36,384 nt of DNA from a virus: the IMG/VR virus record IMGVR_UViG_3300036832_001391, positions 1 through 36,384 of that record, one strand, 5' to 3'. The notes under the pieces were generated by a model that had not been told where the DNA came from, did no database searches, and saw only the letters and a list, made by a program, of their open reading frames with translations. Below are positions 2,401 to 36,384 of this stretch, piece by piece; position 1 is the stretch's first letter; each line of letters begins with the position of its first letter. The position numbers and the translations under genes are program-made.

Positions 2401-5400
2401 TTACCCGGCTGGCGTCCGCAGCGGGATGCGCTGCGCCTGCGGCACAGAGATCGGGACGCGGCGCGCCGAATAGGCGCGCGTCTTGTCGCTCGCGTAGGCC
2501 CGCCCCCAGGCGTCCTGCTCGGCCTGGCGGTTGGCCGCGGACAGGGCCTTGGCGAGCTCGGCCTGCTTCGCCTGGTCGGAGTAGTTCTGGTAGCCGGGCT
2601 GGCTGATGCTGGACTGCGCGAACTGCTGGAGGTAGCGGCCGCGGTCGACCTCCATCTGGCGCTGCTCGTCGGGCGTCAGATCCACCTGGCTCAGGTCGTT
2701 CTTGGCCGTCGCCGTCTTGCCCACCGGGCGGATGATCACGCCCTGCTTGTCGAACTCGTCCAGCATCGGGTTGGGCGGCGCGTAGGTGCCGATGTCGGGC
2801 GTGAAGCCGGACGGCAGGAGCGTGCGCCCGCCGATGTTCAGGCCGCGCTGGGGGATCGGGTTGCCGAGCACGTCCAGCCGCTCGGGCACCTGGCTCGCCA
2901 CGCCCGGCAGGCGCGCCCCGACCGAGTACGGGATGTCGGTCAGCAGGTTGCCGGTGTACGGACCGCGGACGGTCTGCGTGCCGACGCCCGGCAGCGGCGA
3001 CTCGGCGATGTCGGCCAGCGCCGAGCCGTAGGGGATGAAGCTGGCCGCGGTGGTGGTGGCTAGCTGGTTGCCGTAGCGCTGCTCGTCGCTCAGCCCGTTG
3101 GTGACCGAGAGCGCGTCGCGCATCATCGACTCGTTCAGGTAGAAGTTGAGCGCCCGCCGGCCGATGTCCAGGCCGATCGTACCGGCGTCCGGTGCCGGCT
3201 CGCCGCGCTTCGGCTTGGCGTACTGGGTCGCCTCGTAGGCGTTCGCCGCCAGTGTCAGCGGCGCCGCGAACTGGCCCAGGATGCGGTACGGCACCCAGCT
3301 ACCGAGCACGCGCGCCGAGTTTGGCTGCCAGCCGCCGGCCTCTAGCTGGCGCCGCGCGTCGGCGTCGTTCGGGCCGGCCCCGCTCAGGTTGCCGTTCATC
3401 GCCAGACTCAGGCCAAGGCCAAAGATCGAGCTCCCGATCAGGTTGTCCTTGAGCCGCTGGTCGAACGGACGCACGCCCTGGAGCGGCTTGCCCATCGCCA
3501 CCGCGCCCTCGTCGTTCAGCCGCGCCACGTCGCCGAACGTGCGCGTGCCGCCGTAGGCGCCCTTGGTGCGCGCCCAGTCGTAGCCGGTGCCGAACAGGCC
3601 AATCGGCGAGGAGTCGATCATGCGCGCGCCCAGGTTCCCCGCCACGCGCGTGAAGGGCATGATCATGCGCCCCAGGTAGGGGATGCGGCCGAGCATGGTC
3701 AGGCCCTCGGTCATACGCCCCATGTCGCCGCGGAAGCCGACCGTTTGCGCGTACTGGCGGGCGTTGTAGGCCAGGTCGGGGCGCTTGCCGTCGCTCATGG
3801 CGTTGATCTGGTCGGCGATGTAGTTGCCCTCGTCGGTGCCCTTCAGCCCGAGCCGGTGCGCCTCGATCGCCACCTGGCGGTACGCCTCCATGTTGTAGGC
3901 CGTCTGGTAGGTGATGTCGTACATGCTCGAGTGGACGCGGCCGGGGAGCTCGAGGCCGGTGGCGATCCTGGCCGCGGCCTCGGTGCGACGCCCGCCGCCG
4001 CCGGCGACCGGCTGGAACTGCGGGCTCACCTGGCCGGCGCGGATGCGCTCGCCGAGGTTCGGCGTCCAGCGGTTGTCGTTGATCTCCTGCGTCATGCGCT
4101 CTTCGTTCATGCCGTGGCGCATCGTCTCCTGCGCCTGCTGCATGCCCTTGAGCCAGCCCAGCCAGGCGCCCTTCATGGCGGCGCCCGTCTCGCTCGGGTT
4201 GGTCAGCAGGTGCGTCGTCAGCACGTTGTCGCGCACGCCGGCGTAGAGCGTGTTCAGCGCGCCGTTGGCGAAGATCCGCTCGATCGTCTGGAAGCCGGAG
4301 ATCATGGCGTTGTAGTGGAGCGCGTTCAGCATCTGGCCCCAGCCGACCGGGTCCGACTGGTAGGCGCGCCACCACTTGGCGAAGTGGACCGGCTCGGCGC
4401 CGCTCTTGACCAGATCCTGAAAGGCGTTCGCGGCCTTCTCGATGTCCGCGGGACGCATGCCGCGGAGCGCCATCACGCCCTTCGCCTCCTCGAGTTGCTG
4501 CTGCTGGAGGTCGCGCGCGGCCATCGTCTTGTCGAAGCCCTGCGTCGCCTCGCGGTGGGAGCGCTGCGCGTCCAGCCGCGCCTGCTTCTCCTGGGCGGCG
4601 AGCCACGCCTGCGTGCCCTGCTGCTGGGCGCGCCGCTGCTGCGCCTCGCTGGGGGCGCGCATCGGCCCGCGGCGGGCGGCGTCCTCGGCCCGCGTCGCCA
4701 CAAGCTGCGCGCGATCGAGCTCAGCCTGCGACACCGACGTCGAATCCTGCGCCCACTGACCGCGCAGATCATTCAGCCGCTGACGGGCGGAGTCTGCCTC
4801 TGCCCGCAGGTTGGCCGCGGTCGCCGCGTCCTGGCGGTCCTGGGCAGAGCGCGCCTGGAAGTCGGTGGTGCCGCCGCGGTTGGCGGAGATCTGCCGCTCC
4901 TGGGCGATCTCCCGCCGCAACTGCTGGAGCAGCACCTCGGGATCCTCAAGCTGACGCGGCTCGCGCTGGCCGCGCAGCGCCTGGATGCGGCGGAAGTCGG
5001 CGTCCTGCTCATCCAGCGACATGGCGTGGAAGCGCTGGAGCTCCTCGTAGGCGTCGGCGATGTTGTTGAACAGGCGGTCGCGGTACTCGAGCGACTGCGT
5101 CGCCGGCGGGTAGCCGCGGCCGGGGCGCGCCTCGATGTGGCCCGGCTCGAGCTCGGTCGGCAGCGGCTCGGCGCGCCGGCCGCGGTTCGCCTCAACCTGA
5201 TCGGCCTCGGCCTGAATGTCGCGCACCTGGCCGTTGAGACGCGCGGCGCGATCGGCCCGTGCAGTTGCCGTCGCGCCGCGCTGGACGGCGTCCTGGCGCG
5301 CCTGCTCGGCAGCCCGGACGTCCTGCTGACGATAGAACATATCGCCCGGCTGGACGTCGTTGCGGAGCGCGCGCAGGCCGCGACCCATCTCGGCGCGGCC

Positions 5401-8400
5401 ACCCTCGAACATCTGTGTGAGCGCGTCGAGGTGGTCCGACACGGTGAACAGGCGCGACACCAGCGCCTGCTGCTCCTCCTCCGGCATTGAGGACAGGCGC
5501 GCCGCCTGGCGCTGGAGGTACATCTGTTCGAGGCCAAGCTGCGCCTGGGCGTTGCGGAGGCCGCGGATCTCCTCGGCGTTGTACGCCTTGCCCGGGTTCC
5601 ACTGGTCGATCAGCTTGCTGAGCATGGTGCTGTTCGCCCAGTCGCCGGCCATGCGCTCGGACACCGGGTCCGGGATGACGCCGCGGCGCGCCTCGTTGAA
5701 CCAGTTGTTCCGCTGCGCGACCTCGGTCAGCGCGTCGCGCACCTCGGGCGGGTACTTGTCCAGCCGCATGCGCGCGATCTGCTCCTCGGGCGACATCTCG
5801 ATCGGCCGGCCCTCGAAGCCGCGCGGCATGGCCGGCTTCTCCGGTGCTCCCGCTCGGCCGCTCTCGATGAGCGGGATGCGGCGCGCGGCCTCGTTCGCGG
5901 GCGAGCCGTCCGCGTTCCATTGCGGCGCGCCGATGTCGGCCGAGGCGGCGTTGAGCGTGCGGATGTCTTGCTCTAGCTGGCCCTGATCGAAGCCGTTGGC
6001 GTCGGTGTAGTTGCGCGCCACGGCCGGGTTGCTGCTCGCGGCGTCGGTCGCCTGCTGGATAATCTGCTCGCCGTTGCGGAGCTCTCCGTTCTGTAGATGG
6101 CTCGCCACCTCACTGGCTTGAGCCGGATGGTCGGAGCCGAGCCGCGCGGCGAGCGCATTGCGGGCGTCGAGGATCTCCTTCGGCGCCTGCATGCCGCTCG
6201 ATCGCCAGTTGCTGATCTGATCCTCGAGATCGCCGAGCTTGCCCTTGATGTCATCGAACTCGCCGCGCTCCGTGGCCGCGGCCAGGCGCGGCGCCATGCC
6301 CGGCAGATAACCCCGCCCCAGGCCCTCGCCAGCGCCCAGGACGGCCCCGGCGCCAACACCGCGGGCAACGTCCCATGGCGTGGCATTGGGCTGCTGAGAC
6401 GCGCTGTAGCCCCCTGCAAAGCCACCCTGAATGGCGCCGCGGCCGGCGCGCTGCGCGACCTGACCCCAGTCGAAGTGGTCGACCGGGTGCGCCGGCTGGT
6501 CGGGCATGAGCGCATGGCGCATGGCGTCGTACATGACGCCGTGCGTCGTCTCGGCCCCCTTGATCGTGTCCCACAACCAGTGGTGCATGACGTGGTTGAA
6601 GGCGTCCTGCGGGATGTCGGCGCCATAGCCCATCTGGCGGATCTGGTCGAAGCGGTCCTGAATGGCGCTCTGGAGGTACGCCGGCACGCCCGTCGAGGGG
6701 CCGGCGCGGCCGAGCGTGTCGGCCATCGCCGCGAGCTCCTTGTCCTTGGCGGTCACGCTCTTCAGGTCGCCAACGCCGGCCAGCCAGTAGTTGATCTCGT
6801 TCGAGTCGACGGTGACGCCATTGCCCAAGCCGAGCAGGTGCTTGACGAAGGCGGTCTTGTTCGGGCCGATGCCGCGCAGTTGCTGCACCGCCTTGTCCAG
6901 CGCCGCCCAGTCGCCGTTCCGACCCGCCTCGTTGATCTGGCGCGTGACCTCGGGCAGCTTGCCGATGTGGTCGGTCGGCGTCCACTTGAAGTCGCCCGGC
7001 GGGCCGGAACGGGTGGTGGTAAGCGCCTGCTTGGACATCATCGGTTGGCCGGCGCCGAGCTTGGCGCGGAACGCATCGAGCGCGTTCAACGCCTCCTCGC
7101 TCGGGTGGCCGGTCTGAAACTCATCGAGCACGGCACGGCCGGCCGGCGAGTCGAGGAATTCCGCGGTGGCGTCCTCGGGACGCACCATCTTCACGCCGCC
7201 GATGGACGAGATCGCACCCTCGCGCGGTGCCCCGCCAAAGCGGTCGCGGTAGTTGCTGATCACCCCGCCGGTTGTGGTCGGCCGCGGCTCGAGCTCGGTC
7301 GCCTTGGCGCGCATGCTCGAGAGCGTGAGCAGCCACGCCTTGGCGACGTCGCGCTGGGTGAGCTCACCCGCACCCAGCTTCTGGCGCTGCTCGGCCAGGA
7401 ACTGCGTCGCGCCGCGCAGGTAATCGGGCAGATCCTTGCTGCCCAGCATGCTGGCCGCGTCGCGGGCGGTAAGCATGTCCTTCTGCCGCAGCCGATCGAG
7501 CAGCACGCTGCCGGGGCTCTTGGTGGCTTCCTTCGCCATCGTCTCGCTGAGCAGGCCGACGTCGGGATAGCGCCCGCCCAGCGCCTTCACGTAGCGATCG
7601 ACAATGCCCCGCCGGCCGGGCGACAGGACGGTGCCCTCCGGCCCGGCCAGGGTGCGCGCGGTGCTGATCGTGCGGTCGGCCTGCGAGGGGTTCTCCGCCA
7701 TCTCGGTGACGTCCTTGTGCAGGATCGGCACGTCCTTGCCGGTCTGCTCGCGGATCTGGTTGCGGACGTCCTGCATCACCTCGAGACGGGTGCGCGGGTC
7801 CAGCCGGCCGCCGGTGCGGTTCGTCAGCGGCTCGTTCAGCGAGTCGCGCGAGCCGACGTAGTAGAGCGCCTTGACGTCGTTCAGGTTCGGGTCGTAGATG
7901 AGCGACTCGTTGCGCGTCGGCGAGCGCACGCCGGCCATGCGTAGCTGGGCGTTCACGTCGGCCGGGACGAGCGGCCTGGGCGGCTCCTCGCCCGCGGCCG
8001 CGGCGCGCTCGGTCGCCAGCCGCCGCGCCTCGAGCATGGCCGGCTGGATGCGCGTCGGCGACTCGCGCAGCAGGACCGATGCAAGCTGGTCCGGGTCGGT
8101 GATGCGCCCCTGGCGGATGTCGTTGACCAGATCGTTCGGCATGCTCCGCATCAGCGTCGCCGCGCGCATCGCCGGCGCGCCGCTCTGGTCGACCACGAAG
8201 TTGGTGTTGGCCGCGCGCCGCCCACCGCCAATCGGGATGCCCTGGTTCTCGTAGCCGACCACGCGCTGCCCGCCGCTAGGCGAAACCTCGACGTGGCTGC
8301 CGGCCGGCCGGCCGCTGTTGAACATCCACTCCTGCACGCCATCGGGCGTACCGGTGGTATGGATCGGCTCGTTCGGGTGAAGCAGCCCCCAGTGGTGGTT

Positions 8401-11400
8401 GCCCGTCACCAGGCGGCGCGTGTCCGGCTCGAAGACGACGTGAAAGGCAGGCCGCGCCTGGGACACGTTCGCCGGCCCGGCCGTCTCGTTGGCATAGATG
8501 CGGTTGAAGAAGTTGGGGCTGCCGCCGACGCCGGTGTCCGCGTGGAGCTCGTTCTGGTTGAACTGGCCGGCCCGCGTCTGGTCGATGATGTCGCGGCCGA
8601 TGATGTTCTGCGCGTCGATCGCGGCCGAGTCCTCGGTGGAGCCGGGGTAGTTGAACTTGTTCGAGAAACGACCGGTGTCGGCCAGGTGCAGCGCGGCCTC
8701 GGGCGCCAGGCCGCTGAACGTCTCCTGCGAATCCGATAGCTGGCCGGTCATGGCGTCGAAGGTCTGCGCGGCCAGGTCGCGGTACGGCGCCGGGTCGGCA
8801 CCCTCGCCGGCCAGACGCTGCGCCAGGTAATCGACGGTGTCGTTGCGCGCACTGTCGACGCGCTCGGGCGTGACCCGCGCGTAGCCCTCCTCCAGCGAGT
8901 CGGGCGAGTAGGGCACGTCGTCCAGATTGCCGCTCAGGTCGAAGGCGCTGGGCCGCACCGGCCGCGTATCGTTGCCGACGAGCGGGCTCACCGGGGCCTC
9001 CGCACCAAGGCCACCAACCCGTCCGGCGAGCTCGCTCAGCCCGCCCAGGCCACCAGGCACGCGCTCCGCGCCGGCCCGCACCAGCGCACCGGCGCCCTTC
9101 GCCAGACCGGCGATGCCGATGTTGGTCACGCCGCCCTCTAGGATGTCGAGGGCCGCTGCCTGAGGCGTGATGTCCGGTGTCTCCCCTGCCTGGACGCCGC
9201 CCCAGGCACCGCCCTCCAGGCCCTTCTCGGCGAGCCACTTGAGCACCGGCTGGCTGAGGCCGGCCCGCTCGGTCAGCGCTTCGGCGCCGCCGGTGATCGG
9301 CCCGCCCAGGATAGCCGTCATCGGGTCGGTGAAGATGCCCGCGGCCATGTTCGTCAGCCCGCCCACGCCGGTCACGTCGCGGAACGGGTTGCGCTCCTCG
9401 ATCGCCGCCTGGCGATTCGCCTCGGCATTGCTAAAAATCGAGCGAACGTAGCCCGCCTCCTGGGGGATCGCGCCGATGTTGACGTTGGCCTCGCGAGCCA
9501 GGCCACCCAGCACCGGCACCCCCTGGAGCGGGGCGTTCTGCTCGAGCTCCAGCGTGCGCTGGCGCAGCGCCTGCTCGGCCTCCGGGCTGGGCGCCATGCC
9601 CGCGTAGAGCGCCGCCATCGCATCCTGAGTGGCCTGCGTCGGCTCGCTGACCAGGCGCTGAGCGGCACCGCCGATCTGCGGCCCCAGGTCGGTTAGCTGG
9701 CGCGCACCCGCGGCGAGCGGGTCCGGCCCGCCGGCCGTCTGCGGCGAGGGGTTGAGCAGATCCTGCTGCGCCTGCTGCCGCTGGGCCTCGGCCGCGCTGG
9801 TCGGCACCGTGTAGCCGCCGCCCGGCGCCGGCGCGGTGGCCTGCTGGCCGGCCCCGCCGAGGTACTGCGAGATGGCGTTGCCGACCGCGTCGCCGATGTC
9901 CGACTTCAGTTGCTGGAGGCGATCGACGGGGGAGGTTGACGACGGCCCGCCCTCCCCCGCCGCAGATGAAGTAGCGGGAGTTGGAGGCACCCCACCCGCG
10001 TAAGAGGGCAGACCGTTGTCGGTTGGCAGCATACCGGCAGAGCTCGCCGCGGCGCTCTGATCCTGGCTGGGCTGGGGCAGGAACTGGTTGCTGAAGTCGC
10101 CCACGCCGCGCACCGCCTGGCTGGCGGTGTCGGTCGCGGCCGTCGCCGCCTGGCTGGCGGTGCTGCCCAGGTTGCTGAACTGGCTGCCGATGTTCTGGCC
10201 CTGCTGATCGAGCCAGTCCATGGCGTTGGACGCCGAGTCGGTCGCCGTGCTCTGCGCGTCCATGTAGAGTTGCTGGGCGCCGGTCCGGCCGTAATCTGAA
10301 GCAGCCCCGGAACTGCCCACCGAGCTCGCGACACCACCGGCCGGGCTGGCGTTGTCGATGTAGAGCGCGCCGCGGAAGTCGCCCATGCCCAGGCCCGCGG
10401 CCTGCTGCGGGGTGAACCACTCCTGATGGTTGGCCGCGATCAGGTCCGAGCTCGAGGTGCCGAAGTGATACTGGCCGGTGTCCGGGTTGAAGCCGTCGAC
10501 CACGAAGTAGTGGCCGGGCGTGTCGAGGATGACCGGGTTGCCCTTCGCCACGTCCGACTGGACGGCGTTCCAGTCGACGCTGTTGGTGACGTGCGACTTG
10601 ACGCCCATGCCGTTGAGCAGATCCTGCTCCGAGCCGATGCCGTGCATCCCCGAGCTCGCGTCCCAGTCGCCGCGGCTCTGCGCCATCTGCGTGGCCTCGG
10701 CCAGCGTCGGGTCGCGGCCGGTGGCGCGCACGAAGGCGATCGCCGCGGCCGGCCCGCAGATCGCCGCGGCCGTGCCCTTGTCGATCGTCTGGTCGGAGAA
10801 CTGCGACGGGCGCCCACCCGGCACACGGCCCGCGGCCAGATCGGCCGACGTCGGCACCGTGTAGCCGCCACCGGGCGTGGAGCCGGCCTGGACGCCCGGT
10901 GCCACCTGCTTCTGGATCGAGGCCAGGCTGCCCGCATACTCGTCCTCGGCGGCGGTGAAGTAGCCGCCCGCCTTCAGGCCGTGCGCCAGGTCGCCCGCGG
11001 TCTGCGCGCCCATCGCGCCCGGGTAATGGTTCGTGATCAGGCGGATGTAGGCGTTCGCCGAGTCCAGCGGCGTGTCATAGGCGGCGAAGTCCTGATTCAT
11101 GTTCGTGCCGCCGTACTCGCCCTCATGCGTGGCGAGGCTCTGGCTCTTGTCGCCCGGCAGCGCCTTGATGCCAAAGAGCTCGTTGCCCGGCGCGTTCCCG
11201 AAATTGCTCTCGGAGCCGGCCATCGCCGTGACCAGCGTCGGGTCGATGCCGGTCGCCGCGCTGATGTACTGCGCGTAGGGCGCAAAGCTGCGCGCGAAGG
11301 CGTCGCGGCTCGAGTTGTCGATCGGCGTGCTCGGCCCCGGGCCGTTCTGCGTCGTCGCCGGTGACACCGTGCCTGGCGCGACTCCTGCGCCAGTAATGTC

Positions 11401-12117
11401 CGTTGGCGCCGGCGCTGGTGGCGCTAGCTGGTCAGGAGTGATCGGCGGCGTCACGCCCGGCGGAACAGGCGCCGGCGCTGGGAGCACGTCGCCCGCCATC
11501 GCGGCCGGCGGGATCTGCGGCGACGGGTTGAGTTGCTCGGGCAGGATCGGGCCGGTCACGCCAGGTTGCGCGGTCACGGTCGGGCTGCCGAGCGCAGGCG
11601 TCGGCTGCGGCGGCGTGGCCGGCGTCGGGTTCAGGAGGTCGGGCGTGATCGGCGGCGTGACGCCCGGCGGCACGTCCGCGGGCGGCGGGGGAGCCGTGGG
11701 CTGGACGGGCACCGCCGCGGCCGGGTTCAGCATGTCGGACGTGATCGGCGCATTCACGCCGGGCATGGCCGTCTGGAGCGGCGCCGGCGTCGGCGGTACG
11801 GGCTGAGGCGGTGCGGCCGGCGGCTGGGGGAGGGACTGAGTCAGGTCGGCGGCGGGGGGCGGCGTCGCCGGAGGAGGACTCGGCGGCTGACCGACCTGAC
11901 TCTGATCGGGCGTCGGCGCGACCGGCGTCGGCTGGAACTGCTGGTCCGGCGCCGGCTGCGGGTTCAGCGCCGCACCGAGGTCGGTGGCGTGCTGGCCGAC
12001 CTGATGCTCGAAGTTGGTGGCGTCGATTTGAGTCTGTAAAAACTGCTGCGCCTGCTGCTTCTGGTACTCCAGCCAGGAGTCAGTGTCGACGTCGGGGAGG
12101 TCGGCGATCTCGGGCAT
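2401..12117 (-). CDS. Giant 3238-aa virion protein with glucosaminidase-like and C39-like domains
   Basis: One unbroken frame of 9.7 kb, over a quarter of the window. Residues 50-265 are proline-rich and hold four copies of a repeat of the type PPGVTPPITPDLLNP. Residues ~271-405 resemble a FlgJ-like glucosaminidase or lysozyme fold, with the likely acid Glu303 in AMAGSESNFG followed by NELFGIKA. Residues ~440-590 resemble a C39-type cysteine peptidase, with CGPAAA (Cys454) and His536 in TPGHYFVVDGF. Then come A/S/Q-rich linkers, long stretches of unknown fold, a charged Q/R-rich coiled-coil zone in the last third, and a C-terminal region (MISGFQTIERIFANG) that may contact membrane. This is the plan of phage polyvalent or ejection proteins: a virion protein that opens the cell wall and perhaps enters the host. 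Domain calls are from motifs; the middle ~1500 residues remain unassigned. Confidence 0.9.
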   Translation of the reverse strand: MPEIADLPDVDTDSWLEYQKQQAQQFLQTQIDATNFEHQVGQHATDLGAALNPQPAPDQQFQPTPVAPTPDQSQVGQPPSPPPATPPPAADLTQSLPQPPAAPPQPVPPTPAPLQTAMPGVNAPITSDMLNPAAAVPVQPTAPPPPADVPPGVTPPITPDLLNPTPATPPQPTPALGSPTVTAQPGVTGPILPEQLNPSPQIPPAAMAGDVLPAPAPVPPGVTPPITPDQLAPPAPAPTDITGAGVAPGTVSPATTQNGPGPSTPIDNSSRDAFARSFAPYAQYISAATGIDPTLVTAMAGSESNFGNAPGNELFGIKALPGDKSQSLATHEGEYGGTNMNQDFAAYDTPLDSANAYIRLITNHYPGAMGAQTAGDLAHGLKAGGYFTAAEDEYAGSLASIQKQVAPGVQAGSTPGGGYTVPTSADLAAGRVPGGRPSQFSDQTIDKGTAAAICGPAAAIAFVRATGRDPTLAEATQMAQSRGDWDASSGMHGIGSEQDLLNGMGVKSHVTNSVDWNAVQSDVAKGNPVILDTPGHYFVVDGFNPDTGQYHFGTSSSDLIAANHQEWFTPQQAAGLGMGDFRGALYIDNASPAGGVASSVGSSGAASDYGRTGAQQLYMDAQSTATDSASNAMDWLDQQGQNIGSQFSNLGSTASQAATAATDTASQAVRGVGDFSNQFLPQPSQDQSAAASSAGMLPTDNGLPSYAGGVPPTPATSSAAGEGGPSSTSPVDRLQQLKSDIGDAVGNAISQYLGGAGQQATAPAPGGGYTVPTSAAEAQRQQAQQDLLNPSPQTAGGPDPLAAGARQLTDLGPQIGGAAQRLVSEPTQATQDAMAALYAGMAPSPEAEQALRQRTLELEQNAPLQGVPVLGGLAREANVNIGAIPQEAGYVRSIFSNAEANRQAAIEERNPFRDVTGVGGLTNMAAGIFTDPMTAILGGPITGGAEALTERAGLSQPVLKWLAEKGLEGGAWGGVQAGETPDITPQAAALDILEGGVTNIGIAGLAKGAGALVRAGAERVPGGLGGLSELAGRVGGLGAEAPVSPLVGNDTRPVRPSAFDLSGNLDDVPYSPDSLEEGYARVTPERVDSARNDTVDYLAQRLAGEGADPAPYRDLAAQTFDAMTGQLSDSQETFSGLAPEAALHLADTGRFSNKFNYPGSTEDSAAIDAQNIIGRDIIDQTRAGQFNQNELHADTGVGGSPNFFNRIYANETAGPANVSQARPAFHVVFEPDTRRLVTGNHHWGLLHPNEPIHTTGTPDGVQEWMFNSGRPAGSHVEVSPSGGQRVVGYENQGIPIGGGRRAANTNFVVDQSGAPAMRAATLMRSMPNDLVNDIRQGRITDPDQLASVLLRESPTRIQPAMLEARRLATERAAAAGEEPPRPLVPADVNAQLRMAGVRSPTRNESLIYDPNLNDVKALYYVGSRDSLNEPLTNRTGGRLDPRTRLEVMQDVRNQIREQTGKDVPILHKDVTEMAENPSQADRTISTARTLAGPEGTVLSPGRRGIVDRYVKALGGRYPDVGLLSETMAKEATKSPGSVLLDRLRQKDMLTARDAASMLGSKDLPDYLRGATQFLAEQRQKLGAGELTQRDVAKAWLLTLSSMRAKATELEPRPTTTGGVISNYRDRFGGAPREGAISSIGGVKMVRPEDATAEFLDSPAGRAVLDEFQTGHPSEEALNALDAFRAKLGAGQPMMSKQALTTTRSGPPGDFKWTPTDHIGKLPEVTRQINEAGRNGDWAALDKAVQQLRGIGPNKTAFVKHLLGLGNGVTVDSNEINYWLAGVGDLKSVTAKDKELAAMADTLGRAGPSTGVPAYLQSAIQDRFDQIRQMGYGADIPQDAFNHVMHHWLWDTIKGAETTHGVMYDAMRHALMPDQPAHPVDHFDWGQVAQRAGRGAIQGGFAGGYSASQQPNATPWDVARGVGAGAVLGAGEGLGRGYLPGMAPRLAAATERGEFDDIKGKLGDLEDQISNWRSSGMQAPKEILDARNALAARLGSDHPAQASEVASHLQNGELRNGEQIIQQATDAASSNPAVARNYTDANGFDQGQLEQDIRTLNAASADIGAPQWNADGSPANEAARRIPLIESGRAGAPEKPAMPRGFEGRPIEMSPEEQIARMRLDKYPPEVRDALTEVAQRNNWFNEARRGVIPDPVSERMAGDWANSTMLSKLIDQWNPGKAYNAEEIRGLRNAQAQLGLEQMYLQRQAARLSSMPEEEQQALVSRLFTVSDHLDALTQMFEGGRAEMGRGLRALRNDVQPGDMFYRQQDVRAAEQARQDAVQRGATATARADRAARLNGQVRDIQAEADQVEANRGRRAEPLPTELEPGHIEARPGRGYPPATQSLEYRDRLFNNIADAYEELQRFHAMSLDEQDADFRRIQALRGQREPRQLEDPEVLLQQLRREIAQERQISANRGGTTDFQARSAQDRQDAATAANLRAEADSARQRLNDLRGQWAQDSTSVSQAELDRAQLVATRAEDAARRGPMRAPSEAQQRRAQQQGTQAWLAAQEKQARLDAQRSHREATQGFDKTMAARDLQQQQLEEAKGVMALRGMRPADIEKAANAFQDLVKSGAEPVHFAKWWRAYQSDPVGWGQMLNALHYNAMISGFQTIERIFANGALNTLYAGVRDNVLTTHLLTNPSETGAAMKGAWLGWLKGMQQAQETMRHGMNEERMTQEINDNRWTPNLGERIRAGQVSPQFQPVAGGGGRRTEAAARIATGLELPGRVHSSMYDITYQTAYNMEAYRQVAIEAHRLGLKGTDEGNYIADQINAMSDGKRPDLAYNARQYAQTVGFRGDMGRMTEGLTMLGRIPYLGRMIMPFTRVAGNLGARMIDSSPIGLFGTGYDWARTKGAYGGTRTFGDVARLNDEGAVAMGKPLQGVRPFDQRLKDNLIGSSIFGLGLSLAMNGNLSGAGPNDADARRQLEAGGWQPNSARVLGSWVPYRILGQFAAPLTLAANAYEATQYAKPKRGEPAPDAGTIGLDIGRRALNFYLNESMMRDALSVTNGLSDEQRYGNQLATTTAASFIPYGSALADIAESPLPGVGTQTVRGPYTGNLLTDIPYSVGARLPGVASQVPERLDVLGNPIPQRGLNIGGRTLLPSGFTPDIGTYAPPNPMLDEFDKQGVIIRPVGKTATAKNDLSQVDLTPDEQRQMEVDRGRYLQQFAQSSISQPGYQNYSDQAKQAELAKALSAANRQAEQDAWGRAYASDKTRAYSARRVPISVPQAQRIPLRTPAG
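11416..11763 (-). repeat. Four proline-rich repeats inside the giant gene
   Basis: Residues 119-133, 151-165, 185-199 and 220-234 of the giant protein are variants of PPGVTPPITPDLLNP (PGVNAPITSDMLNP, PPGVTPPITPDLLNP, QPGVTGPILPEQLNP, PPGVTPPITPDQLAP), spaced 32-35 residues apart by P/A/T-rich linkers. They lie between the extreme N terminus and the glucosaminidase-like domain. Their regular spacing suggests a short docking motif, a cleavage site or a spacer used several times. Confidence 0.8.
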
Positions 12118-31107: not shown

Positions 31108-31449
31108 TTGGCGCCGCTGCTGACCGGCCTGCTGTTATTCGCCGCGACGCTGTTCACGTCCGACGACTCCTACCAGGCCATCGCTGACGCCGCTGCCAAT
31201 CACGGCGTCAGCGAGGCAGCGCTCATGCGCGTTGCCCGCTGCGAAACCCACGGCAGCTTCGACCCGTACAGCGTCGGCGACCACGGCACCAGCTACGGGC
31301 TGTTTCAATTGCACCGCGGTGGTCTACTGGGGCTGTTCTACGTCGACCACTCCGACGCCTTCGACCCGTACCAGGCCGCGGACTTCGCCGCGGCCGTCAT
31401 GGCCGGCGAGGTCGAAGGCGCCCACATGTCGGCGTGGAGTTGCTGGTGA
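31108..31449 (+). CDS. Secreted lysozyme-like transglycosylase, 113 aa
   Basis: Starts at TTG 31108 with GGGAG 9 nt upstream. Residues 1-18 (MAPLLTGLLLFAATLFTS) are a signal peptide or signal anchor. The rest is a compact lysozyme-like domain: ALMRVARCETHGSFDPYSVG with catalytic-type Glu46, then GDHGTSYGLFQLHRGG and a C-terminal MSAWSCW. This matches small SLT/resuscitation-factor-like transglycosylases that cut peptidoglycan. Cys45 and Cys112 could form a disulfide outside the cytoplasm. It overlaps a tiny membrane gene, so together they look like a lysis or wall-processing pair. Confidence 0.85.
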   Translation: MAPLLTGLLLFAATLFTSDDSYQAIADAAANHGVSEAALMRVARCETHGSFDPYSVGDHGTSYGLFQLHRGGLLGLFYVDHSDAFDPYQAADFAAAVMAGEVEGAHMSAWSCW

Positions 31450-33556: not shown

Positions 33557-33832
33557 CGGGCGTGGCGCCTCAGGCATACCGGGTAGGAGGCGACCACTCG
33601 GATCCGGAGCCGCCCGGCTGCCTCGGCGTCTTGATGTTCCTGATCCTCTGCGTGCTGATCGGGGCGCTGGCACTGTGGCTGGTGCTGAAGGCGCAAGGAG
33701 CTCTGTAGCGGCCAGCCGCTCCTCGGGCGTCGGGTTGTGGAAGTGGCACCGCTGCCCGACCCCCATGATCTGGTCGATGCAGGCGCGGCAGTGCAGCCAC
33801 GGCGGGTCGATCTTCTTGCGCTTCGTCGGCAT
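33548..33832 (-). CDS. Small Cys/His protein, 94 aa or shorter
   Basis: ATG 33832 shares bases with the upstream stop (TGATG), which supports its start. The N-terminal half is convincing: MPTKRKKIDPPWLHCRACID, then QRCHFHNPTPEERLAATELL, a small zinc-binding pattern with CxxC and CHFH. The C-terminal half is low-complexity, R/S/P-rich and runs antisense to a plus-strand gene. It ends the late operon on this side. Possibly an HNH-like or zinc-finger fragment; not enough for a name. Confidence 0.6.
   Translation of the reverse strand: MPTKRKKIDPPWLHCRACIDQIMGVGQRCHFHNPTPEERLAATELLAPSAPATVPAPRSARRGSGTSRRRGSRAAPDPSGRLLPGMPEAPRPLG
33562..33708 (+). CDS. 48-aa single-span membrane peptide
   Basis: GTG 33562, 5 bp after the previous stop, with no clear ribosome-binding site. 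The product has a short polar start and one membrane helix (GVLMFLILCVLIGALALWLV). It overlaps the minus-strand zinc protein gene (33548-33832) in antisense. At least one of the two may be shorter or untranslated, so this is a tentative call. Confidence 0.5.
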   Translation: MAPQAYRVGGDHSDPEPPGCLGVLMFLILCVLIGALALWLVLKAQGAL

Positions 33833-33933
33833 CAGAAGTGCCTACCGATCGAGTCGCCGATGCCCTTCAGCCAGTATGCCGTGGCGCCGATCGCGCCGAT
33901 CGCTATACCGATGACGAGTACAACCAGCGGCAT
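33832..33933 (-). CDS. 33-aa membrane peptide
   Basis: ATG 33933 has AGGAG 7 nt upstream and its stop overlaps the next start. The product, MPLVVLVIGIAIGAIGATAY followed by WLKGIGDSIGRHF, has one clear hydrophobic span and a small amphipathic end. It belongs to a run of tiny membrane genes after the C39-like peptidase. Holin-type or lysis-accessory function is possible but unproven. Confidence 0.65.
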   Translation of the reverse strand: MPLVVLVIGIAIGAIGATAYWLKGIGDSIGRHF

Positions 33934-33986
33934 CAGCAGGCTCCTGGCGCGATCGGTGGCGGCGGACGCATGGGCAGCGTCGGCAT
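33933..33986 (-). CDS. Possible 17-codon minicistron
   Basis: ATG 33986 opens a short frame (MPTLPMRPPPPIAPGAC) whose stop overlaps the start of the 33-aa peptide (TGATG) and whose start overlaps the stop of the previous gene (TGATG). Such a bridge would keep ribosomes moving along the operon. The peptide itself is proline-rich and may have no function. Confidence 0.35.
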   Translation of the reverse strand: MPTLPMRPPPPIAPGAC

Positions 33987-34189
33987 CAGAAGGGCAACAG
34001 CCTGAGCGCGTGCAACAGCGCGTAGGCCACCAGCGCCACGAAGATGATGCCGCCAACGAGCAGCCCCAGCGTCACCAGATGGCCCTCGAAAGCACCCCCA
34101 ATAGTAGCCCGCCGCCGGTTGTACCCGACCGTGAGGCTGATCGTGAGCTCGAAGCTCGAGCCCCGGTCGGGAGTTTCGTCAGCGCCCAC
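33986..34189 (-). CDS. Single-span membrane protein, about 67 aa
   Basis: I choose GTG 34189, which overlaps the previous stop by 11 bp; a TTG at 34225 would overlap far more, and a GTG at 34075 would leave only 29 residues. The N-terminal half is polar (MGADETPDRGSSFELTISLT), followed by a strong membrane helix (LVTLGLLVGGIIFVALVAYA) and a short basic end. Topology could be outside-in or the reverse. Part of the membrane-peptide cluster. Confidence 0.6.
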   Translation of the reverse strand: MGADETPDRGSSFELTISLTVGYNRRRATIGGAFEGHLVTLGLLVGGIIFVALVAYALLHALRLLPF

Positions 34190-34277
34190 GCCCGTCCCGA
34201 AACTTGACGTAGGCCAGGAATGCAAACAGGGCGACCAGCACGATCACGCTCGCCGCCCATGCCTGCCACTCATTCAC
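34179..34277 (-). CDS. 32-aa membrane peptide
   Basis: GTG 34277 lies 1 nt after the stop of the two-span peptide gene. The product, MNEWQAWAASVIVLVALFAF then LAYVKFRDGRGR, is a single hydrophobic helix with a basic, positive-inside end. Its size and layout resemble small spanin-less lysis or holin-regulator peptides, but this is only a shape argument. Confidence 0.6.
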   Translation of the reverse strand: MNEWQAWAASVIVLVALFAFLAYVKFRDGRGR

Positions 34278-34278
34278 C

Positions 34279-34437
34279 TCAGACCAGGCGTGCTACCGCG
34301 AGGCCACCGATCAAGAGCGCCAGCTTGGTGTCGATGGCGCTGGTCACCACCAGCACCACCACCACGATCAAGATGATCAGTGCGATCAGCCAGCCGATGC
34401 TGATCGGCTGAATACCCCAGTTGGTTGTCACCTGCAT
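34279..34437 (-). CDS. Holin-like two-span membrane protein, 52 aa
   Basis: ATG 34437 overlaps the stop of the C39-like peptidase gene (TGATG). Two hydrophobic segments, ISIGWLIALIILIVVVVLVV and LALLIGGLAVARLV, are joined by a short polar turn (TSAIDTK). Two spans in ~50 residues, directly behind a predicted wall peptidase, fit a class II-type holin. Holins are too diverse to confirm by eye. Confidence 0.62.
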   Translation of the reverse strand: MQVTTNWGIQPISIGWLIALIILIVVVVLVVTSAIDTKLALLIGGLAVARLV

Positions 34438-34967
34438 CAGTCCACCACCCACAGATTGCTGAAGCCGCCCAGGCGGTTGTAGTCGTAGCCCGAAAGCTGG
34501 TCCCAAATTCCCTTGTAGCCCGGTGCGGAATTCGCGATCCAGAGGTTGGAGCCCTGCACGCCCCTGACCGCCACCCAGTGATACCAGCCGGCACCGCTCA
34601 TGAGGCCGGGCGTGGTGGAGTAAATCGCGTAGGCGTCGTCAAAGCTGAGCCAGCCGTGGTCGGTGCCGATGGCGTCGGTGTCTTCGAGCACGCGCTGAAG
34701 CTGGGCACCGGAGCCGTCCATGAGCCCGTAAGCGGGATTGATGTTGCCCGTATATCCGATGTCATAGACAACGTTCTGACGGTTGGTGTAAACATCGCCG
34801 CCGCGGTCGTAGCCCATGGCGCGCTCAAGCCACTCAAGCGAACAGGCGCTGCAAGTCCAGTCGTATAGCTGGGGGATCTGCTCGGTCCAGGGGTTCCACT
34901 GGAGCGGGATCGGCGGCTCGGCTTCATCACCGAAAGGGACACCGCCTGGTGGCGTTGTCCTCCTCAT
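34437..34967 (-). CDS. C39/papain-like cysteine peptidase, 176 aa
   Basis: ATG 34967 is the only start in frame; it overlaps the 60-aa gene by 41 bp. The likely nucleophile is Cys39 in LYDWTCSACSLEWLERAMG, with His130 in GAGWYHWVAVRGV and Asn146 in LWIANSAPGYKGIWD, the order expected for C39-like or papain-like peptidases. It has no signal peptide. Followed at once by a holin-like gene, it is the best candidate for the endolysin, cutting peptide bonds in the cell wall. Other options are a tail-associated protease or a deubiquitinase-like fold with a different role. Confidence 0.75.
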   Translation of the reverse strand: MRRTTPPGGVPFGDEAEPPIPLQWNPWTEQIPQLYDWTCSACSLEWLERAMGYDRGGDVYTNRQNVVYDIGYTGNINPAYGLMDGSGAQLQRVLEDTDAIGTDHGWLSFDDAYAIYSTTPGLMSGAGWYHWVAVRGVQGSNLWIANSAPGYKGIWDQLSGYDYNRLGGFSNLWVVD

Positions 34968-35109
34968 ACCAGTAGTAGATGGCGTCCCGCCCGTAGGTGC
35001 GGCTCACTTTGTGGCCCTCGGCCAGGATCTCGAACATCTCGTCCGAGCGCGGCTCGTCGCTATTGTCGGCCATCGCCTGCCGCACGCCCGGCCCGATGTT
35101 GTAGTCCAT
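34927..35109 (-). CDS. Small acidic protein, 60 aa
   Basis: ATG 35109 overlaps the stop of the gene before (TGATG). The sequence (MDYNIGPGVRQAMADNSDEP, SDEMFEILAEGHKVSRTYGR, DAIYYWYEEDNATRRCPFR) has an alpha/beta outline, with no metal site or membrane helix. It lies between the coiled-coil protein and the peptidase. No family recognised. Confidence 0.72.
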   Translation of the reverse strand: MDYNIGPGVRQAMADNSDEPRSDEMFEILAEGHKVSRTYGRDAIYYWYEEDNATRRCPFR

Positions 35110-35387
35110 CAACCCACCCCGTCTACCGACATGGGCAGCCCGTCCGGCCGGGCGATCTCCCACGTCACTTCGCCGCTGTTCCAATCGATGTTCACGCGCA
35201 CTGGCGTGCCCTCGGCCGGGAGCTCGACATCATGATCCTCACATGCCGAGCGGAGGGCCGTCTCGTACTGCTCGGCATAGGCCCGGCCGAGCGTCTGGAG
35301 GTTCTGGAGCGCCGCCTCGATCGCCTCGAGACGGCCGCGGTAGCGCTGGAGACGGCGGAGTGCGTTCGGGGGCAATGCATTTGTCAC
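35109..35387 (-). CDS. Coiled-coil protein after the tail fibre, 92 aa
   Basis: GTG 35387 follows the fibre stop by 2 nt. The first ~55 residues are a long helix (LRRLQRYRGRLEAIEAALQN LQTLGRAYAEQYETALRSAC), the rest a small strand region (VRVNIDWNSGEVTWEIARPD). A helical protein behind a fibre gene can be a fibre chaperone or a structural part; neither is shown. A longer frame from 35501 would cover the fibre end and is unlikely. Confidence 0.72.
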   Translation of the reverse strand: MTNALPPNALRRLQRYRGRLEAIEAALQNLQTLGRAYAEQYETALRSACEDHDVELPAEGTPVRVNIDWNSGEVTWEIARPDGLPMSVDGVG

Positions 35388-35389
35388 GA

Positions 35390-36384
35390 TCAGTTTCCAA
35401 TCGCCAACCAATGTACGGTGCAGTTCCCACCGCTGCCAGTGGTGTTGAAGATGCGGACGTTGAAGCCGGTGGTGGAGACGTTCTGCGCCGCGACGTGCCA
35501 ATCCTTGATGTCGCCCGAGGTCGGCGTGTCGACGGTGACGAGGACGATCGGGTTGGTGGTGAATGCCCGCGCGAACGTCTGCCCGTAGCTACCCGGGCTG
35601 TTGGCGCCGACACCATTGAGGGACGGGTGGCCGTACTCGACGTGCGCCATGCTGCCGCTGCCGGTGGTGACCACGCCCAGGCCATTGATGGTGAGCGTGC
35701 CCGCGAACGACCCGTTGCCGTTGACGCTCAGGTTGTTGTTGGCGACCACCGTGGTGCCACTGCCGGTGATATTGGCGGTGCCGGCGAAGGTGATCTGCCC
35801 GCAGTTATTGAGCCGGTGCGTATTGACGTTGACGTCGTTGTTCAGCCCCACCGGACCATTGAAGGTGGTATTCCCGCTGACGCTCAGTCCGACCACGCTG
35901 AGCGTGCCCGGGATGATCACATTGCCACTGTCACTGACGCTGAACGTGACCGCGGTGTAGGCGCTGTTGACGAGCTCGAAGCCGATCGCGTTGTTGGTGG
36001 TCGGCCGCATCGCCCAGGCGCGCGTCGTCCCATCGGGCAGGTAGCAGGTGAAGTTGCGGCTTGAGTCGAAGATGAACCCGTTGCTGGCGCCGATCTGCAT
36101 CACCAGCGGGGTGCCGATCAGGTTTAGCTGGCGGTACGCGCTCCCACCACGGTCATAGCTCTGGAGCACGCCGGCCGTACCCGACCAGAACATCTCCAGG
36201 CCGGCCCCCTGGCTGGCGAACGCCGACCGCTGGCCGGTGCTACGGAACCAGTCCGGAATGTCCAGCGAGCCGCTGAAGGCATTGCCGTTGATTGGCCCGC
36301 CCTGGTGCGCGCCACTGTGCGTATGCCCGGTCACCTGATTGAACAGGCCGTCGACCGTGGTCAGTGAGTCAGACAGGTAGACCG
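35390..36384 (-). CDS. Tail fibre / receptor-binding protein (5' end outside window)
   Basis: The frame stays open to the window edge (331 codons seen), so the start lies beyond. Near the visible N terminus is TGHTHSGAHQGGPINGN, a histidine-rich motif common in phage fibres. The middle has repeats of about 15-20 residues of the type GNVIIPGTLSVVGLSVSGNT and GTLTINGLGVVTTGSG, typical of a trimeric beta-helix. The C-terminal ~90 residues (from HVEYGHPSLNG) resemble an H-type lectin-like fold: FTTNPIVLVTVDTP, ... VSTTGFNVRIFNTTGSGG and CTVHWLAIGN, often the receptor-binding tip. No chaperone domain is seen at the end. Confidence 0.88.
   Translation of the reverse strand, partial: VYLSDSLTTVDGLFNQVTGHTHSGAHQGGPINGNAFSGSLDIPDWFRSTGQRSAFASQGAGLEMFWSGTAGVLQSYDRGGSAYRQLNLIGTPLVMQIGASNGFIFDSSRNFTCYLPDGTTRAWAMRPTTNNAIGFELVNSAYTAVTFSVSDSGNVIIPGTLSVVGLSVSGNTTFNGPVGLNNDVNVNTHRLNNCGQITFAGTANITGSGTTVVANNNLSVNGNGSFAGTLTINGLGVVTTGSGSMAHVEYGHPSLNGVGANSPGSYGQTFARAFTTNPIVLVTVDTPTSGDIKDWHVAAQNVSTTGFNVRIFNTTGSGGNCTVHWLAIGN

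Follow-up and report, generated by a model that had tools for sequence, protein, structure and literature searches.

A phage papain-like peptidase predicted to be made by programmed frameshifting in a candidate lysis cassette

We studied a stretch of viral DNA of 36,384 bases, the record IMGVR_UViG_3300036832_001391 (hereafter the window), in which a chain of small genes lies on the minus strand behind a fibre gene. A papain-like peptidase in this chain appears to have no believable start of its own and is predicted to be a frameshift product. Its frame is the out-of-frame continuation of a 60-residue ORF that we call DYN: DYN ends a few codons past a Pro-Phe pair, and the peptidase continues from the same Pro-Phe. 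We consider it likely that this chain, with which the late operon ends, is a lysis cassette and that its lysin is this peptidase, made by programmed frameshifting from DYN. This view is built on features of the sequences, namely a common junction, absent start codons, conserved slip codons, repeated switches of joining mode, the fold and catalytic residues of the peptidase, and an enrichment of membrane ORFs behind it.

Gene order at the end of the late operon

The fibre gene (35390-36382, minus strand) encodes a C-terminal H-type lectin domain (PF09458, E = 4e-6). Between it and DYN there is a small coiled-coil-like gene of 92 aa with a GTG start (35109-35387, minus strand), which has an equivalent in the related locus L011. 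DYN (34927-35109, minus strand) represents the N-terminal domain and the short product of the putative frameshift gene, and it starts in a TGATG overlap with the stop of the 92-aa gene. The slip site CCC UUU C is at 34932-34938 on the minus strand (CCC 34938-34936, UUU 34935-34933, skipped C 34932). After the slip site, the DYN frame reads CGG and then UGA at 34929-34927. A +1 shift would lead into the C39/papain-like peptidase region (34437-34931, minus strand), and the predicted product, DYN-peptidase (P0007; 34437-35109, minus strand, one base skipped in reading), would have 223 aa.

The sequence-only reading had described a chain behind a C39-like peptidase between 33832 and 34967. The ATG at 34967 sits within DYN and is almost certainly not the true start of the peptidase. 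The chain begins further upstream and takes in the DYN ORF. The C39-like assignment itself was borne out by the fold and by the Q-C-H-N set described below.

Relatives of the peptidase

The peptidase as bait gave one relative. The terminase as bait gave G005, whose terminase is 70% identical and in which the peptidase was then located. A three-sequence profile yielded 72 IMG/VR loci, and a scan with DYN as bait yielded 80 loci. The fibre protein as bait retrieved no relatives. By tblastn against 50,697 phage records, neither the peptidase nor the in-frame fusion of L046 had a match, and the peptidase and DYN profiles had no match among GTDB genomes. Therefore, the peptidase family is known solely from metagenomes, with no candidate host among the GTDB genomes. 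Four distant relatives, L079-L082 (28-36% identity), carry the peptidase as the N-terminal part of a protein of approximately 466 aa.

The predicted frameshift junction

We determined how the two frames are joined in 63 non-redundant loci, obtained by reducing the pooled sets at 90% DNA identity. The joining was +1 in 51 loci, -1 in 7 and in frame in 5. In the first set, the N-domain was readable in 63 records. DYN was joined +1 in 39 of these, -1 in 6 and in frame in 2. Another N-domain, of the QLQ type, was joined in frame in 12 and -1 in 4. Of the 80 loci from the DYN scan, 75 were read, with 53 cases of +1, 8 of -1, 10 in frame and 4 that the script left unassigned. By eye, three of these four had the peptidase out of frame; L160 was in frame. 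The frame break was seen in 112 records from many samples.

The predicted P-site codon was TTT in 51 of the 51 +1 loci, whereas elsewhere in the same ORFs TTT accounted for 52 of 304 Phe codons (17%); in seven long genes of the window it accounted for 19 of 170. The preceding codon was CCC in 45 of the 51 loci, compared with 107 of 371 Pro codons. The base after TTT was T in 31 loci (UUU-UGA, with the stop in the A site) and C in 20 (mostly UUU-CGN-UGA). An invariant TTT followed by T or C fits a Phe-tRNA that moves by one base, from UUU to UUU or UUC. The +1 loci share a slip-prone string, CCC-UUU-Y, directly ahead of the stop of the first ORF, and its conservation goes beyond codon usage. 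The -1 loci had C-CCU-UUY, a regular -1 heptamer, or, in two cases, G-GCU-UUC. In the four -1 loci with the QLQ N-domain (L002, L054, L055 and L056), a domain of the form ITQLQQQQ… was joined to the same peptidase at the heptamer C-CCA-AAA, and 12 relatives have it in frame. Judging from these junctions, the QLQ cases would be a second, separate use of frameshifting for the peptidase.

The in-frame loci retained C-CCU-UUY. A -1 slip at this string would reach UGA within two codons and would give DYN alone. This potential for a short form may be an inherited by-product rather than a result of selection, because Phe-Asp/Glu spelled TTT-GAN itself creates TGA. The predicted junction of the window product, CPF-GDE (CPF-GDEAEPPIPLQWNPWTEQIPQLYDWTCSAC), is like the in-frame LPF-GDG, and its PF-GD is identical to that of the in-frame fusions L044 and L046. 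A -2 shift was also considered. It would insert an extra residue (PFFGD); since the in-frame fusions have PFGD at this point, a +1 shift is the better fit. Transcriptional slippage was not favoured because the runs are only three or four bases long.

Substitutions after the junction, counted by codon position in the peptidase frame, were 4911, 5186 and 6700. Position 3 was favoured, as it was in DYN before the junction, and this excess lends modest support to translation of the peptidase frame. On a 63-row tree built without the junction, the joining mode required 9 changes, where the minimum would be 2. It was also more clustered than shuffled labels (0 of 200 shuffles as low). These results implied that the direction of the shift is inherited yet often switched. 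We found no RNA structure downstream of the slip site (mean z between -0.12 and 0.14), and thus no classical stimulator. Some known frameshift sites have no need for such a structure. The string GAGGAGGA, which might act as an SD-like element, was present about 23 nt upstream of the slip site in many, but not all, loci.

The peptidase and DYN domains

DYN and the peptidase were modelled as two separate domains. The AlphaFold model of the peptidase, from 37 sequences, had a mean pLDDT of 90.3. Its fold matched (VIA) C39 proteases, namely 6mpz (PCAT protease; Z 16.3, rmsd 2.5 over 136 residues) and 3k8u (Z 14.5), and also 8z4h, the pseudomurein endoisopeptidase PeiR (Z 14.6). Gln33, Cys39, His130 and Asn146 were invariant, residues that a papain-like enzyme would be expected to have. 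No Pfam family and no PHROG matched the peptidase among the curated families, so it is filed by its fold and not as a Pfam member. A PDB sequence search with the peptidase profile returned only a chance match to flavodoxin.

DYN had 38 aligned homologues with a mean column identity of 67%. Its AlphaFold model (pLDDT 92.9) comprised a helix and four strands. DYN had no Pfam match, Foldseek returned nothing below E 0.59 for its fold, and a PDB search gave only chance matches to T-cell receptors. The best fold match (VIA) was 6swz, the C-terminal domain of the corynebacterial mycoloyltransferase MytA, with a Z of 6.9 that is below the level at which it would mean much. This match is too weak for DYN to be called a wall binder.

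Small membrane ORFs behind the peptidase

Behind the peptidase, all on the minus strand, lie a holin-like protein of 52 aa with two hydrophobic segments (34279-34437), a single-span ORF of 32 aa with a GTG start (34179-34277), a single-span protein of 67 aa with a GTG start and an N-terminal SVGYxRRR-like motif (33986-34189), a 17-codon bridge with TGATG at both ends (33933-33986), a single-span ORF of 33 aa (33832-33933) and, last of the chain, a Cys/His-containing ORF of 94 aa that has a TGATG start and is 54% identical in L011 (33548-33832). The chain of small membrane ORFs described by the sequence-only reading is real, and its coordinates were confirmed on this strand. Only 7 of the 320 window ORFs of 22-130 aa had a 19-residue stretch with a mean Kyte-Doolittle value of at least 2.2, and 5 of these 7 crowd into the segment between 33337 and 34506, which argues against chance. 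The junctions had been described as mostly stop-start overlaps. Four of them are TGATG junctions (peptidase/holin, 67-aa/bridge, bridge/33-aa and 33-aa/94-aa), but there is a 1-nt gap between the holin-like and 32-aa ORFs and an 11-nt overlap between the 32-aa and 67-aa ORFs.

The relatives had a similar neighbourhood. In 46 non-redundant loci, the number of hydrophobic ORFs per 1.26 kb behind the peptidase was 1.76 on the peptidase strand and 0.22 antisense, compared with 0.00 upstream. At least one hydrophobic ORF lay behind the peptidase in 43 of the 46 loci and at least two in 26. Several membrane ORFs in a row are therefore normal in this phage group. The window had been thought to have more membrane parts than usual; it lies at the upper end of the range but is not alone.

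The holin-like family was found in 48 loci, every time on the peptidase strand, and the pair of peptidase and holin-like protein recurred in many soil-phage contigs. G005 keeps the same order, with the peptidase, a holin-like protein (58% identical), a 31-aa single-span ORF, other TM ORFs and a Cys-rich ORF. The holin alignment as bait found nothing beyond the already known relative. Small and with two predicted spans, the holin-like protein is of the kind found in lysis cassettes and is a candidate pore former. The family of the 67-aa peptide, with the SVGYxRRR motif and one TM segment, was present in 7 loci including the window, and a later search gave more. Other loci have different small membrane proteins in its place, including two 2-span families. 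For the 32-aa, 33-aa and 17-codon ORFs we found no significant homologues among the relatives, nor did we see conservation of the bridge. The sole counterpart of the 32-aa ORF, in L011/G005, is positional (26% identity). These three ORFs may be genes, but as gene calls they are less secure than the 67-aa and holin-like ORFs, which have homologues. Profile searches for Pro-rich and 46-aa TM families were discarded because they drifted into composition noise.

None of the four membrane peptides (52, 32, 67 and 33 aa) contains a cysteine. A lipobox, and hence a spanin lipoprotein, is not possible among them, in agreement with the earlier remark that none resembles a known spanin. In L011 (7689-8140, minus strand) and L016 (6694-7196), a TM and Pro-rich protein is followed in a stop-start overlap by a protein with a TM segment and a short charged helix. 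By shape this may be a spanin-like pair; it is absent from the window. Another small membrane peptide, VEYGxxLAxxAxV…, recalls Flp-type pilins and lies behind the peptidase in the same cassette of L011 (8141-8263, minus strand), L016 and L037. The window also has a single-span ORF of 48 aa on the plus strand (33562-33708; …DPEPPGCLGVLMFLILCVLIGALALWLVLKAQGAL), antisense across the end of the 94-aa ORF. Both ORFs were recognisable in L011, and relatives of the 48-aa ORF lie directly behind the peptidase, on the peptidase strand, in several other phages.

Proposed mechanism and alternative explanations

In the mechanism that we infer, ribosomes would translate DYN at a high rate, and most of them would stop at the UGA and release free DYN. 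Some would slip +1 at CCC-UUU-C, where the Phe-tRNA leaves UUU to re-pair with UUC, and would read on through the peptidase to make the full-length enzyme. Related phages would do the same by UUU-UGA (+1) or C-CCU-UUY (-1), and in the in-frame fusions with the same string a -1 slip would again give DYN alone. Free N-domain and a smaller amount of N-domain-peptidase would thus be made in a set ratio. DYN would have the role of an extra non-catalytic domain, and it may bind the wall or partner the full enzyme. The holin-like and other small membrane proteins, translated behind by stop-start coupling, would act in lysis by releasing the enzyme to the cell wall, where its target would be peptidoglycan. 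We also propose, tentatively and with a little less than even confidence, that this is a widespread, undescribed lysin family in which CCCUUUY serves as a +1 site, a -1 site or an in-frame short-form -1 site, with both products kept through repeated mode switches. If so, two lysin products would be held in ratio by one slip string across three modes.

The peptidase adjoins holin-like membrane proteins where the late region ends, as an endolysin would, and hydrolase activity is predicted from its fold. A lysis cassette, which the sequence-only reading had suggested without seeing the missing start and the predicted frameshift, is the reading that best fits the peptidase fold and catalytic set, the holin-like and other membrane ORFs and the position in the operon. 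Some points weigh against the reading as a frameshifted lysin. No classical stimulator was seen at the slip site, neither DYN nor the peptidase matches Pfam or PHROG, and the peptidoglycan target is presumptive. The window also contains a 113-aa ORF with a hydrophobic N-terminus (31108-31449, plus strand) and a borderline match to an SLT transglycosylase domain (E = 4e-4, just under the cut-off), which might be a second lysin. The main rival comes from the place of DYN after the fibre gene, where a virion part could also lie. The same frameshift might make a virion peptidase, associated with the tail tip or fibre, with DYN as an abundant structural part of which a few copies carry the peptidase for entry. 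DYN directly behind the fibre and coiled-coil-like genes would suit this, and the known frameshift genes of phages are mostly for capsid or tail proteins (PMC5009743). However, most relatives have holin-like and further membrane ORFs behind the peptidase, which is the arrangement of a lysis cassette. A better candidate for an entry enzyme is a 3238-aa protein of the window (2401-12117, minus strand) with glucosaminidase (PF01832) and Peptidase_C39_2 (PF13529) domains; it is probably a giant protein of the virion that is ejected or acts during entry. A virion role thus seems rather unlikely to us.

It seems quite improbable that there is no frameshift at all and that DYN is an unrelated upstream gene, with separate translation of the peptidase through reinitiation or from a start that is internal or unusual. 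The DYN stop is near the peptidase frame, and the window has ATG 34967. In most relatives an ATG stands seven codons ahead of the active-site Trp, from which a short separate peptidase might be made. Yet the downstream ORF overlaps the upstream one, and in most relatives the peptidase frame lacks a sensible start. From the last in-frame stop to the active site, 7 of the 58 frameshift loci have no ATG, GTG or TTG in the peptidase frame; in 14 of 58 no usual start follows the junction, and in the others start codons occur only within DYN or near the active site. The start-like codons at the DYN stop of the window (GTG and ATG in CGGTGATGA) belong to the third reading frame, which is the wrong one. 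Separate translation would also leave TTT in all of the +1 loci unexplained, and some loci carry in-frame fusions that have this PF-GD or PF-D/E junction. We give hardly any credence to the idea that the frame breaks come from decay of a formerly continuous gene or from errors of assembly. An indel does give a single-base offset and in-frame versions are found, but the offset is at the same string in all of the records from their many samples, the catalytic residues are invariant and the frames on either side are intact. We therefore retain the frameshifted lysin as the preferred reading.

Comparison with known systems

Frameshifting, C39-fold lysins and lysis cassettes are each already known. 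Programmed frameshifting of the +1 kind is uncommon among bacteria and their phages, and few natural sites are known. In the open-access literature searched, we found no report that a phage lysin is produced by frameshifting, whether +1 or -1, at one conserved slip string. For a single gene, the present family offers 51 distinct +1 sites, 7 -1 sites and 5 in-frame controls, with which one can test the sequence requirements for +1 slipping and how shift direction evolves. Standard gene calling would miss such a peptidase or assign it a false start, as with ATG 34967.

The nearest +1 cases are those of the Listeria phages. In PSA, A118 and A500 the major tail gene shifts +1 at CCC_UGA, and the PSA capsid gene does so at ACA_CCC_UCC; the tail genes shift beside the stop without the pseudoknot of the capsid site (PMC5009743). 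These are also double-stranded DNA phages with a +1 slip near a proline codon, adjoining the stop in the tail gene. Their products are capsid and tail proteins, whereas here the product is a papain-like peptidase, with a predicted P-site UUU followed by a stop or by an Arg, Pro or Leu codon. Ig-like domain extensions of phage structural proteins are also joined by +1, -1 or no shift in different phages (reviewed in PMC5009743). The three joining modes of one extension are alike, but those were ascribed to chance domain shuffling, and here one gene pair with one slip string switched modes repeatedly on a tree.

With respect to the enzyme, PeiR (8z4h) and the C39 proteases of PCAT/ComA (6mpz, 3k8u) share the fold of the catalytic domain but have 12-15% identity and no common architecture with the peptidase. 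Mycobacteriophage LysA proteins with the C39-like N5 domain are likewise phage lysins with a C39-like peptidase domain; they are single-frame, multi-domain proteins, and the text of the paper does not mention frameshifting (PMC3314691). In Streptomyces phages, a genome announcement predicted frameshifts near endolysins and holins from coding potential (PMC9671017), and these may be related in kind. The two-polypeptide endolysins Lys170, LysIME-EF1, CTP1L and LysP7951 produce a full enzyme and a free non-catalytic domain from one gene (PMC9430671, PMC4777826, PMC7098653), as we propose for DYN-peptidase. In those enzymes an in-frame internal start frees the C-terminal domain, whereas here the N-terminal domain would be freed by not shifting, which would be a new route to a two-part lysin.
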